NCBI RefSeq assembly: GCF_003722315.1
Contig: NZ_CP033580.1
Coordinates: 62,001-126,000 of the forward strand
Reading direction: 5' to 3'
Origin: Thermoanaerobacter ethanolicus JW 200
GTDB lineage: Bacteria > Bacillota > Thermoanaerobacteria > Thermoanaerobacterales > Thermoanaerobacteraceae
DNA length: 64,000 nt
In this document: one piece after another, positions 16,755 to 20,777 of the stretch
How positions within the stretch are numbered: position 1 is the first letter of the stretch
Layout: the number at the start of each line of letters is the position of its first letter
The notes under the pieces: generated by a model
Told to the model about the DNA's origin: nothing
The model's input: the letters and a program-made list of their open reading frames with translations, nothing else
The model's database searches: none
Program-made: the position numbers and the translations under genes

Positions 16755-18140
16755 TTATCTATCTTTTAAAGGCAACTCAATAGTGAAAACACTACCTTTT
16801 CCTACCTCGCTTTCTACAGTAATAGTCCCTTTGTGTTCTTCAATTATCTTTTTAGAAATAGCAAGTCCCAATCCTGTGCCACTGTATTTATTATTTTTAC
16901 CTCTATAAAATTTATCAAATATATATTTTATTTCCTCTTGCGGAATTCCTTGTCCCTGGTCTTCAATCCTTATTACAGCTTTTTTGTCCTTTATGTCAAG
17001 AAACACCTTAACATATTTTCCTCTACTACAAGCTTTTATTCCATTGTCAATTATATTCACTAATACTTGTTTTAATCGATTTACATCCCCATTTATGACA
17101 ACCCTATCAATCTTTTTTTTGCAAATTAAATTTACTCCATAATTGCTAGCATGAGGTCTTAAAATTGCGACTGTATCCTCTATCAATTTATCTAACTCTA
17201 CTTCTTCAAAACTTAGTTTAATCTTATTTAATTCTATCTTAGAAAAATCCAAAAGTTCATCCACTAAACGAGAAAGCCTATCTGTTTCTTCATCAATAAT
17301 GTTCAAATACTCATATAGTTCACTATTTTTTTCTACCAAATCCATCGCAGTTATCGCGAATCCTTTTATGGAAGTAAGAGGTGTTTTTAATTCGTGAGAA
17401 ATATTGCTTATAAATTCATTTTTCATCTCTTCTAACTGTCCCAATTCTTCGGCCATTTTGTTAAAAGAATCCGCAAGTATTCCTATTTCGTCATTTGAAG
17501 TTTTCTCCGCTCTCACTTTAAAATTGCCCTTTGCCATTTCCTGAGTTGCCTTTTTTACCATTTCAAGAGGTTTTGTTAATTCATTTGCTATAAAAAATCC
17601 TATTATCAACGCAACTAAAGAAGACACTGTCAAAACAAGCGCTAAAAATAAAACCAGTCTTTTTATTATGTTGGAAACTTCCTCCAAAGAAGAAGAAAGC
17701 CTCAAAATTGCCACATAATTTAATTTGTTTTTTACAGGAACCGAAACGTGTAAAACTCTTTCATTATTGATTTTTTCTGTATAAACTCCACTTTCTCCAG
17801 AAATAGCTTGTATGACATCCGGGGTGAGTATTTTGACAGGGACAGGAGTAGATGAAAGTGTGGAATCTCCTAAAAGCATACCTTCCATATTTAAAACCTG
17901 AACTTGAGCATTAGTATCTGTAGCAAGCTTTTTAACTACATCTTGGCTTATTGTATATATATCTGCATCAATGTAGCTGTCAAACACACGAGAAAAAGAA
18001 GTGCCCTGAGAAGTTAATATCTCAATTATATTGTCAATATAATATTTTTCAAGAGTTAAAGTAGATATGACTCCGAAAAAAATTATTATCATTGTAATCA
18101 ATAAAATATATGAAATGGTAAGTTTAATCTTTATACTCAT
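16755..18140 (-). CDS. Sensor histidine kinase with double transmembrane sensor and HAMP
   Basis: A 461-aa membrane kinase. A first TM at about residues 7-27 is followed by an outside sensor domain (about 30-160), a second TM (about 163-188), HAMP (about 188-240) and HisKA with SHELKTP (phospho-accepting H249). The HATPase domain shows NIIDNGIKAC (N box), DQGQGIP (G1), FDKFYRG (F box) and GTGLGLAISKKI (G2). It directly follows the response regulator with no intergenic bases, forming a cognate pair of the PhoR/ResE type. The stimulus is unknown; the divergent gene is dfx (superoxide reductase), so redox stress is one possibility. Confidence 0.92.
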   Translation of the reverse strand: MSIKIKLTISYILLITMIIIFFGVISTLTLEKYYIDNIIEILTSQGTSFSRVFDSYIDADIYTISQDVVKKLATDTNAQVQVLNMEGMLLGDSTLSSTPVPVKILTPDVIQAISGESGVYTEKINNERVLHVSVPVKNKLNYVAILRLSSSLEEVSNIIKRLVLFLALVLTVSSLVALIIGFFIANELTKPLEMVKKATQEMAKGNFKVRAEKTSNDEIGILADSFNKMAEELGQLEEMKNEFISNISHELKTPLTSIKGFAITAMDLVEKNSELYEYLNIIDEETDRLSRLVDELLDFSKIELNKIKLSFEEVELDKLIEDTVAILRPHASNYGVNLICKKKIDRVVINGDVNRLKQVLVNIIDNGIKACSRGKYVKVFLDIKDKKAVIRIEDQGQGIPQEEIKYIFDKFYRGKNNKYSGTGLGLAISKKIIEEHKGTITVESEVGKGSVFTIELPLKDR

Positions 18141-18830
18141 TTAGTTTCCCCCAAAATAGTACCCAACTCCCCATTGGGTATGTATATATTTCGGCTGGTC
18201 AGGATTTACTTCAATTTTCTCCCTCAATCTTCGTATATGTACGTCCAAAGTTTTCGTATCCTCGATAAAAGAATCGCCCCATATAGAAGCAATAAGTTCC
18301 TCTCTCTTTACAACTTTTTTCCTATTTGTCATCAACATCTTTAAAATCTGAAATTCTCTCGGAGTAAGAAAAACCTCCTTTCCTCTTACAAAAGCCTTAT
18401 TCTGGATCAAGTCCAATTTTATTTCATCATATTCCAACAAATTGATACTTTTACTTGAAGCATTAAATTCATAAACCCTTCTTATAACCGCTCTTACTCT
18501 GGCGACAAGTTCTCTCGGGTTAAAAGGTTTTGTTATATAGTCATCTGCTCCTAGCTCTAAGCCCAAGATTTTATCCACATCCTGGCTTTTGGCTGTCAAG
18601 ATAATTACTGGAGTATTCACTTTCATGGCTCTTATCTTTTTCAAAAGTTCAAAACCACTTATGTCCGGAAGCATTATATCCAACACTATAACAGAAAACC
18701 TTTCCCTTTCTAATAAATAAAGTGTCTTCTCACCCTCATGCACTATTTCAGTCTCGTAGTATTTATCCAAATTTATTTTTACAAATTTAGCTATATTAAC
18801 ATCGTCTTCAATTACCAATATTTTGTGCAT
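18141..18830 (-). CDS. OmpR/PhoB-family response regulator
   Basis: A 229-aa regulator. The receiver domain (about 1-115) has the acidic pocket ED at 8-9 and the phosphoacceptor D51 in VLDIMLP, with T and K at the usual later positions (ILTAKS, YITKPFNPRELVARV). The winged-helix DNA-binding domain spans about 130-227 (LTPREFQILKMLM, VDVHIRRLREKIE-like, GVGYYFGG). It is first in a two-gene operon with the adjacent kinase and divergent from dfx across a 230-bp intergenic region. Confidence 0.93.
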   Translation of the reverse strand: MHKILVIEDDVNIAKFVKINLDKYYETEIVHEGEKTLYLLERERFSVIVLDIMLPDISGFELLKKIRAMKVNTPVIILTAKSQDVDKILGLELGADDYITKPFNPRELVARVRAVIRRVYEFNASSKSINLLEYDEIKLDLIQNKAFVRGKEVFLTPREFQILKMLMTNRKKVVKREELIASIWGDSFIEDTKTLDVHIRRLREKIEVNPDQPKYIHTQWGVGYYFGGN

Positions 18831-18940
18831 TTTACCACCTCCTCACCATTATATTATCATACTTTTATAAAAATTAACAATTGCATTTTTCAATTGTCCG
18901 ATATTTGTAACTCAATTTATAAAAAATTTTTCCTTCCCTC

Positions 18941-18969
18941 TTGAAACTTAAAAAATTTTAATGTATTAT
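18941..18969 (+). promoter_or_regulatory. Promoter of dfx
   Basis: TTGAAA (18941-18946), a 17-nt spacer and TATTAT (18964-18969). The predicted transcription start, about 7 nt downstream, falls on the first base of the inverted repeat at 18976. Confidence 0.7.
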
Positions 18970-18975
18970 AAATAT

Positions 18976-19013
18976 AGAAGATAATATATTTCCGTTAAAA
19001 TATATTATCTTCT
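18976..19013 (+). repeat. Perfect 16-bp inverted repeat at the predicted 5' end of the dfx mRNA
   Basis: AGAAGATAATATATTT (18976-18991) and its exact complement (18998-19013) are separated by 6 nt. In RNA this makes a very 5'-terminal stem-loop; in DNA it is a large palindrome just downstream of the -10 box, which could equally be a repressor operator. A terminator role is unlikely because it is AT-only and is not followed by a T-run. Confidence 0.85.
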
Positions 19014-19060
19014 GAAACTTAATTTTAATTTCACACTTTTACATAGAAGGAGGAATAAAA

Positions 19061-19438
19061 ATGGCTGATTTATATGGAGTTTACAAATGTGAAAAATGTG
19101 GAAATATAGTAGAAGTACTTCACGAAGGGGTTGGCACTTTAGTCTGCTGTGGTGAACCAATGGTAAAAATGCAAGAAAAAACAGGAGATACAGGCACAGA
19201 AAAGCACACACCTGTTATTGAAAGAAATGGAAATATTGTAACAGTAAAAGTAGGAAGTATACCTCACCCAATGGAAGAAAAACATTGGATTGAATGGATT
19301 TCTCTCTTAGCTGATGGGGTATACATGAGAAAAGTATTAAAACCAGGTGAAAAGCCTGAAGCAGTTTTTGTAACAGATGCAAAAGATTTAAAAGCGTGGT
19401 CCTACTGCAATTTGCACGGTCTATGGAAATCTGAATGA
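19061..19438 (+). CDS. dfx: Desulfoferrodoxin (superoxide reductase, two-iron type)
   Basis: A 125-aa cytoplasmic protein that reduces superoxide to hydrogen peroxide without making oxygen. The N-terminal desulforedoxin domain (1-36) has the four Fe ligands in CEKCG and VCCGEPM. The C-terminal neelaredoxin domain has the (His)4Cys centre: [23 protein letters not shown] and CNLHGLW. Both centres are intact, so this is class I Dfx. AGGAGG sits 8 nt before the ATG. It is probably monocistronic, ending in a hairpin shared with the convergent transporter. Confidence 0.96.
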
Positions 19439-19439
19439 A

Positions 19440-19467
19440 AATAAGGGCAAAAAGCCCTTATTTTTTA
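19440..19467. terminator. Bidirectional terminator between dfx and the sugar transporter gene
   Basis: AATAAGGGC (19440-19448), a loop of five A, and GCCCTTATT (19454-19462), followed by T residues to the right and preceded by A-rich sequence to the left. It begins 2 nt after the dfx stop and includes the reverse-strand stop of the transporter gene (19458-19460). Confidence 0.88.
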
Positions 19468-20777
19468 CTCTCTAACTTATACCTCTCCAATTCTTTTTCT
19501 GTCAAAGAATATTTATTAAACACAATTAAGCTTAGTATAATTATAGCACCTGCTAAAGGCCCACAAAGCTGTAAACCAAGCGGATTTTCTGCATTATACC
19601 CAAAAATCTTAAATAAAAGTGGAGTTACAAGAGAAGAAATCCCTATTACTATTTTTATTATAAATCCCTGAGCTCCAAAAAACATTCCCTCTCTTCTTTG
19701 CCCTGTCTTAATCCCATCCAATTCCGCTATATCAGCAATCATTGCATTAGGTACTACAAAGAATACAGAAAGCGGTATACCAGCTAATAAAATGATAATT
19801 ATAGAAACTGTTTTATTAAAAACAGTCCCAAAAAGTCCAGTAAGAGTTAAAATGAAAGCAAATATTATAGAAAACACCATAAGAAGTTTTTTCTTTCCGT
19901 ATAATAGTGTAAGCTTCGGCACAAAGAAGCTAAACAAAACTGCCACAACAAATGCACCTGCAATCATAAAGCCAGAATCTTCAGCAGGAGTCTTTAAAAG
20001 CACTTCTGTTATATAAGGCATTGCTATAGTCAAGGTATTTATGCCAAACCACAAAGCTGTTGCTGCAGTAAGGTAATACATAAAATCTGCATTTGCCAAA
20101 GTCATCTTAATAGAAGTAAACATCCCCACTGTAGGTATATTTTCTTCCTCTATTTTTTCTTCTTTTACAAAAATAGGCGTAAGCATTAAAGTAATAAAAG
20201 CAAAGATTCCCAATATAATTCCCATAATTTTAAAATTAAAAATCCCAATCAGAATTCCCGACCCTGCTTCTGCTACCATAACACCTATAATCTGCGTTAT
20301 CCCTTGCATCATAGTAAGTGTAATTCTTTCTTTTGCATCTTTAGTTATTTCAGGTATGAGAGCAAGATACGGCGCCACAACTGCAGTAAAAGACACAAAA
20401 AATAAACTTAATACAAAAGTGAGATAAACAAAATTTACTATTGACACCTCAGAAACAGGAGGAAACCATATCATTATAAAAGAAATCATCAAAACAGGTG
20501 AGCCAAATAGCACAAAAGGTATTCTCCTGCCCATTTTGGTATTTAATTTGTCAGAATAATAAGCAACTATTGGGTCAGATATGCCGTCAAATATTCTCGC
20601 AACTATCATAGAAAAACCTATAAGGCTTATTGGTACAAGCATTTTAAGCCCCTGTGTATTAAATGCTGGAGGAGTGTAATAGTATTGATACCATTTTACC
20701 GCAGTCTGTGTAAATATGGAAATTCCTAAATACCCCAAAGAATACATAAAAAGCACAAAAAATCTATTATTTTTCAT
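19458..20777 (-). CDS. GPH/MelB-type sugar:cation symporter family protein (MFS)
   Basis: A 439-aa membrane protein with about 12 TM segments. The GPH (glycoside-pentoside-hexuronide) signature is seen in RIFDGISDPIVAYYSDKLNTKMGRRIPFVLFG (about residues 62-93), which includes the MelB cation-site aspartates, and in the later TGQRREGMFFGAQGF block near the C-terminus. These carriers import sugars or sugar acids with Na+ or H+. It is the last gene of a four-gene operon, overlapping the upstream nitrilase by 11 nt. Together with the glycosidase-like gene, it suggests uptake of an oligosaccharide or glycoside; the substrate is not known. Confidence 0.87.
   Translation of the reverse strand: MKNNRFFVLFMYSLGYLGISIFTQTAVKWYQYYYTPPAFNTQGLKMLVPISLIGFSMIVARIFDGISDPIVAYYSDKLNTKMGRRIPFVLFGSPVLMISFIMIWFPPVSEVSIVNFVYLTFVLSLFFVSFTAVVAPYLALIPEITKDAKERITLTMMQGITQIIGVMVAEAGSGILIGIFNFKIMGIILGIFAFITLMLTPIFVKEEKIEEENIPTVGMFTSIKMTLANADFMYYLTAATALWFGINTLTIAMPYITEVLLKTPAEDSGFMIAGAFVVAVLFSFFVPKLTLLYGKKKLLMVFSIIFAFILTLTGLFGTVFNKTVSIIIILLAGIPLSVFFVVPNAMIADIAELDGIKTGQRREGMFFGAQGFIIKIVIGISSLVTPLLFKIFGYNAENPLGLQLCGPLAGAIIILSLIVFNKYSLTEKELERYKLESKK

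Follow-up and report, generated by a model that had tools for sequence, protein, structure and literature searches.

The gene for desulfoferrodoxin (dfx), a superoxide reductase, is preceded in the window (the whole stretch of 64,000 nucleotides analysed here) by a perfect palindrome. Does this palindrome act as a stem at the 5' end of the dfx mRNA or as an operator on the DNA, and which regulator would recognize it? The window is part of a 2,911,280-base genome of the genus Thermoanaerobacter, and its ORF at 19061-19438 was identified as desulfoferrodoxin by the model TIGR00320 with 187.8 bits (cut-off 146.9). The features of the locus are the following.

16755-18140, minus strand: sensor histidine kinase, partner of the divergent response regulator
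18141-18830, minus strand: divergent OmpR/PhoB-type response regulator, judged unlikely as regulator of dfx
18941-18969, plus strand: predicted dfx promoter with -35 TTGAAA (18941-18946), 17-bp spacer and -10 TATTAT (18964-18969), from the consensus scan and the promoters of relatives
18976-19013, no strand: perfect inverted repeat with 16-bp arms and 6-nt loop, its first base being the predicted start, from the chance control
18979-18993, no strand: proposed left 15-bp box AGATAATATATTTCC with a strong outer and a weak inner half, from a putative two-box reading
18980-19009, no strand: conserved core of the putative operator, GATAAT-N18-ATTATC, found in 17/17 dfx promoters and with one half common to the perR promoter
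18996-19010, no strand: proposed right 15-bp box TAAAATATATTATCT, reverse complement AGATAATATATTTTA, from the same putative reading
19048-19053, plus strand: dfx ribosome-binding site AGGAGG, from the sequence
19061-19438, plus strand: dfx, desulfoferrodoxin (2Fe superoxide reductase), 125 aa, from Pfam PF01880, PF06397 and TIGR00320

The arms AGAAGATAATATATTT (18976-18991) and AAATATATTATCTTCT (18998-19013) are complementary at 16/16 positions and are the longest among the six perfect inverted repeats in the window (arms of at least 12, loops of 3-10). As a control, we employed 40 dinucleotide shuffles of the window, which contained on average 0.1 repeats with arms of at least 12 and 0.025 with arms of at least 13, while arms of at least 14 occurred in none of the 40. 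The 16-bp-arm palindrome before dfx is real and not given by chance, and the description in the first-pass annotation of a perfect 16-bp repeat with a 6-nt loop directly past the -10 element was confirmed. The predicted promoter, TTGAAA-17 bp-TATTAT, matches 10 of the 12 consensus positions. By itself, the promoter scan of the window is little proof (9 promoter-like sites compared to 5.9 (sd 2.6) in shuffles), but the matching geometry in 17/17 relatives does support the predicted promoter. The first base of the palindrome, 18976, lies 7 nt downstream of the -10 element and is a reasonable prediction for the dfx transcription start.

Two other assignments of the palindrome were dropped. A search of Rfam with window positions 18700-19500 (E up to 1) returned two weak matches at the dfx end/terminator and none over the palindrome, which is thus left without a curated RNA family. 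An intrinsic terminator was rejected as the palindrome has no T tail; the sole terminator-like match of the scan covers minus-strand positions 19343-19359. Separately, an inverted repeat at 19440-19467, AATAAGGGC-AAAAA-GCCCTTATT followed by T's, lies between dfx and an MFS gene, whose ends converge here, and is probably a terminator; it was spotted by eye and is absent from the output of the terminator scan.

Among the 61 genomes searched, dfx is present in 46, including 8/9 of Thermoanaerobacter (absent from G003) and 9/9 of a second genus of the same family. We take this second genus to be Thermoanaerobacterium because two of three published primer ends for perR of T. saccharolyticum match one of its loci (L191) exactly; the third has an exact match at none of the loci. 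All 17 dfx promoters of the two genera contain GATAAT-N18-ATTATC 10 or 11 bp past the -10 element, and a TTGA..-17-TAT.AT promoter with a 17-bp spacer at the same place (17/17). A dfx-type sequence is also present in a tenth Thermoanaerobacter genome (G061), and G003, the genus member lacking dfx, has no copy of the dfx-type site. None of 13 dfx loci from other families carries the core (0/13, the closest having 3 mismatches), and among the best 80 of 582 dfx loci in a wider collection it was found only in Thermoanaerobacter thermocopriae (L063), even with 2 mismatches allowed. After removal of the dfx copies, loose GATAAT-N-ATTATC patterns occur near background, with 27 matches versus 21 in the control for N17-19 in the ten Thermoanaerobacter genomes, and 12 versus 13 for N18 in the nine of the second genus. 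As a side observation, the dfx promoters of family f4 (L023-L029, L031-L033) carry in 10/10 cases a different palindrome, TTGTAA-N16-TTACAA, at fixed spacing, whose right arm extends to the ribosome-binding site; by analogy, this is possibly a comparable operator.

Stems at the 5' terminus can stabilise mRNAs, and the dfx message, predicted to begin with a perfect stem of 16 bp, would fit such a role, in which the stem slows decay from this end. The arms indeed co-vary: both partners changed in 6/16 pairs, 86.5% of cells are paired, and the covariation score was reached by 1/500 shuffles and exceeded all slid controls. In a hand count, one-sided changes were of the G-U type in five cases and of the A-C type in one (one-sided p ~0.11), which is a slight lean towards RNA. 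However, the symmetric half-sites of a dimer predict equal covariation, so that covarying arms are also expected of an operator; together with the lean of the one-sided changes, the covariation makes an additional function as RNA conceivable.

Several further observations argue against the stem as the main function. GATAAT and ATTATC are invariant, but pairing of the inner arms is disrupted in the second genus: over the 12 inner arm positions, two are unpaired in 8/9 second-genus sites and one in the remaining site, compared to none in 7/8 Thermoanaerobacter sites and one in G004. In contrast to stabilising stems, inner pairs are thus lost between genera, and bases are conserved that pairing would leave free to change. 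Furthermore, when distinct inner 18-bp sequences of the two genera were compared, the reverse complement gave the better fit in 18 of 20 cases and the two orientations tied in the other 2, although these comparisons use related sequences and are not independent tests. The best case is G000 versus G017, with 15/18 positions identical in reverse complement and 11/18 directly. The Thermoanaerobacter dfx site also resembles the site at the gene perR (see below) better in reverse complement (29/30 comparisons), while in the second genus the direct orientation is better in 20/24, with one opposite case and 3 ties. The orientation of the dfx centre preferred between the genera is the one that aligns both of them with the perR site. 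A centre that is conserved but can have either orientation with respect to the gene is expected of a DNA site bound by protein, and the reversed centre and the unpaired inner arms of the second genus suit DNA rather than RNA. The predicted fold also weakens strongly with temperature: in G000 it has -15.2 kcal/mol at 37 °C but just -4.5 at 65 °C, and the second-genus stems retain only -1.1 to -3.2 kcal/mol at 60 °C; we take these organisms to grow near 55-70 °C. Lastly, the half-site recurs at perR without a comparable stem. For the G000 perR site, hardly any RNA fold is predicted, with -3.9 kcal/mol at 37 °C and -0.2 at 60 °C, and RNA structure thus cannot account for the half-site common to dfx and perR. 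Taken together, the comparative evidence speaks more for an operator in double-stranded DNA than for a stem at the mRNA 5' end, and we consider an mRNA stem-loop an unlikely explanation of the repeat. The first-pass annotation had regarded the choice between stem and repressor site as undecidable; comparison with relatives points to the repressor site and away from the stem as main function, and the repeat may have an RNA role in addition.

With a DNA site as the favoured reading, the question is which protein binds it. Inspection of the upstream regions of Fur-family genes revealed the dfx half-site right past the -10 element of one gene, perR, which is located ~2.17 Mb from dfx on the same chromosome. 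The G000 perR site is identical to the G013 dfx site at 24/32 positions (20 of the last 22), and to the reverse complement of the G000 dfx site at 23/32. A weight matrix derived from dfx sites only, for a half-site selected after the similarity to perR had been noticed, scored 17.4-23.9 bits in 8/10 Thermoanaerobacter perR promoters, compared to a background maximum of 5.9 bits over 127,548 window positions. In the perR promoters of G004 and G003 it scored just 3.4 and 2.8 bits, respectively, and it gave nothing useful in those of the second genus (9/9, best -0.5 bits). In a genome-wide search, in which the 150 best candidates were scored per genome, the dfx-only profile ranked perR as the top non-dfx place in six of the ten Thermoanaerobacter genomes (G000, G001, G002, G005, G007 and G061) and second in G006; perR is not among the matches listed for G003, G004 and G008. 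The lead in G000 is modest, with 16.7 bits for perR and 14.8 for the next place (E 0.03), and the three next places read there are coding sequence. A mixed profile that includes the perR sites, and is partly circular, gave 28.3 bits for dfx and 26.8 for perR in G000, where the next place had 14.5. Its three top places in G010 (20.1, 19.7 and 17.4 bits) were rejected as redox targets as their contexts are not redox genes: one precedes a molybdate-binding-protein-like gene, one is where a uvrB-like gene starts, and one falls within coding sequence (names by eye).

At Thermoanaerobacter perR, the right box is preserved and the left one persists in decayed form, both in the same register as in the dfx site. 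The second-genus perR promoters all contain a related, near-symmetric 15-mer, WGAKAAATYTTATTA (9/9), located 18 nt past a TATAAT in 8/9; the ninth, L189, has two TATAAT. As judged from its sequence, this 15-mer has diverged from the dfx site of that genus. We also observed an AT-rich stretch, GAAAGAGAAAATAATTATTTATTA, right past the -10 element of the rubrerythrin promoter in G000 (L257, gene at 1480), which loosely resembles the perR site; several Thermoanaerobacter genomes have retained it, G003 only poorly.

The perR product matches the NCBIfam PerR model NF052545 with 206.9 bits (cut-off 180), and its best match in the PDB is B. subtilis PerR (2FE3). Alignment to this structure shows that H37, D85, H91, H93 and D104 (B. 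subtilis numbering), which we take to be the regulatory metal ligands of PerR, are all conserved (5/5). The conserved position and core of the dfx site, the half-site it has in common with perR and the identity of this gene as PerR can thus be read from the sequences themselves.

The site could alternatively belong to a different Fur-family paralogue or another repressor controlling both dfx and perR. A Fur-family search of G000 gave 6 matches at 5 places, so that further Fur-family genes exist, one of them adjoining a peroxiredoxin gene, and the palindrome misfits the classical PerR box. However, a site shared by dfx and perR is most simply explained by PerR regulating its own gene, and among the remaining Fur-family loci of G000 no other Fur-gene promoter contains GATAAT-N16..20-ATTATC with at most one mismatch; the matches to the core pattern at L182:4698 and L184:1524 are elsewhere in these stretches, outside Fur-gene promoters. 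A second regulator of this kind therefore appears improbable to us.

Other observations on this protein family were made along the way. At L179:795-1894 (G000:C1 717794-718893), a second PerR-like Fur-family gene is located directly upstream of a peroxiredoxin-like gene (names by eye except for the Fur match), and this organism may have two peroxide sensors. Another Fur-family gene, L180:2041-2367 (G000:C1 2394424-2394788), is in two pieces with a stop in G000 and whole in G007 (L181). Perfect boxes WGATAAWNWTTATCW occur four times in G000, none of them at dfx or perR. A perfect Fur-type box, TGATAAATATTATCT, is found near base 1501 in L251, L245, L246 and L248, where it precedes a gene for an NADH-dehydrogenase-like membrane protein (named by eye).

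The divergent response regulator was a further candidate to bind the palindrome and control dfx, and the first-pass annotation had derived the plausibility of redox control from this two-component system. It is indeed the divergent neighbour of dfx here, in the inspected Thermoanaerobacter loci L009 and L010, and in G014. However, among the nine second-genus genomes an orthologue (59%) was found only in G014, yet the site is kept in 9/9, eight of them thus doing so without an orthologue of the response regulator; a relative at 46-47% is present in five of these, and in the other three nothing was found at E 1e-60. In 4/5 inspected second-genus loci the divergent gene is lyase-like (named by eye), G014 being the one with the regulator. 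Moreover, OmpR/PhoB-type proteins usually favour direct repeats as targets. We consider control of dfx by this response regulator highly improbable. Redox control as such is retained, now through a PerR-type repressor encoded elsewhere, and the two-component system as its source is not.

We thus favour with good confidence, based on these comparisons, that the palindrome is a DNA operator over the dfx start, to which PerR probably binds and represses dfx, with derepression by peroxide along with perR. In the mechanism that we infer, metal-loaded, unoxidised PerR would bind the palindrome, likely with one dimer per palindrome half, and block RNA polymerase at dfx. Peroxide would inactivate PerR, and dfx and perR would be derepressed together; perR would repress itself through the half of a dfx-type site right past its own -10 element. 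One way to read the 32-bp core is as a pair of 15-bp boxes 2 bp apart, each with a strong outer half, RGATAAT, and a weak inner half. In a 7-1-7 reading, each arm offers the strong outer heptamer RGATAAT, while the inner heptamers of Thermoanaerobacter match its complement poorly (by eye) and the left arms of the second genus come closer, AGATAAT-A/T-TTTATCA. Because of the weak inner box halves in Thermoanaerobacter, the two-dimer reading is uncertain.

A more speculative possibility, which we regard as doubtful, is that the single 38-bp element of Thermoanaerobacter serves both as a two-dimer PerR operator in the DNA and, once PerR is off, as a perfect 5' stem that prolongs the life of the dfx mRNA, the perfect arms having arisen in Thermoanaerobacter on a pre-existing operator. 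If so, a brief peroxide signal would yield a long-lived superoxide reductase transcript.

How does the proposed PerR operator compare to known systems? In B. subtilis and relatives, the PerR box has a 7-1-7 architecture with the consensus TTATAATNATTATAA, and PerR boxes in other anaerobes depart from it, according to the accessible text of PMC545781. Alike are the Fur-family site overlapping the promoter of an oxidative-defence gene and the seeming self-regulation of PerR. Unlike the B. subtilis box, with TTATAAT, the half-site here is RGATAAT, and the outer halves of the dfx site are separated by 18 bp within a palindrome of 32 bp. Inside the palindrome, every window departs from the classical box at no fewer than 6 of 14 positions; two windows with 4 mismatches, at 18957 and 18963, overlap the -10 element. 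As the B. subtilis consensus does not apply, we propose for this lineage an operator of PerR type and not a classical PerR box. An extended Fur box bound by two Fur dimers has been described, as far as the accessible portion of PMC11353095 goes; it would likewise be a long operator for two Fur-family dimers, but its 7-1-7 sites overlap, while the boxes proposed here stand face to face, 2 bp apart.

In clostridia, PerR has been linked to superoxide reductase (C. acetobutylicum, and the rbr1-perR-rbo locus of C. difficile; accessible sections of PMC7482061 and PMC8546684). The arrangement proposed here would likewise place the enzyme under a PerR repressor in a strict anaerobe. Unlike the clostridial case as these sections present it, dfx stands alone, outside a rbr-perR-dfx cluster, with its own proposed operator of distinct sequence. 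PerR control of superoxide reductase is thus already known in clostridia, and the features specific to this locus are the long palindromic layout and an apparently short target list. Among the literature matches listed, no title or abstract opening describes the operator proposed here, subscription papers being mostly outside the coverage. For Thermoanaerobacterium saccharolyticum, deletion of perR was reported to result in higher survival in air (PMC4910263, in the part available); the words 'desulfoferrodoxin' and 'superoxide' are absent from the main text of this paper, which therefore does not address dfx there.

Taken together, a hairpin noted in raw sequence could be resolved towards a DNA site via its orientation, its pairing and its recurrence in relatives. 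Our analysis thereby provides a concrete candidate operator and regulator for superoxide reductase in thermophilic, ethanol-producing anaerobes, which may be of relevance as deletion of perR is reported, in the available part of PMC4910263, to increase the air tolerance of such anaerobes.
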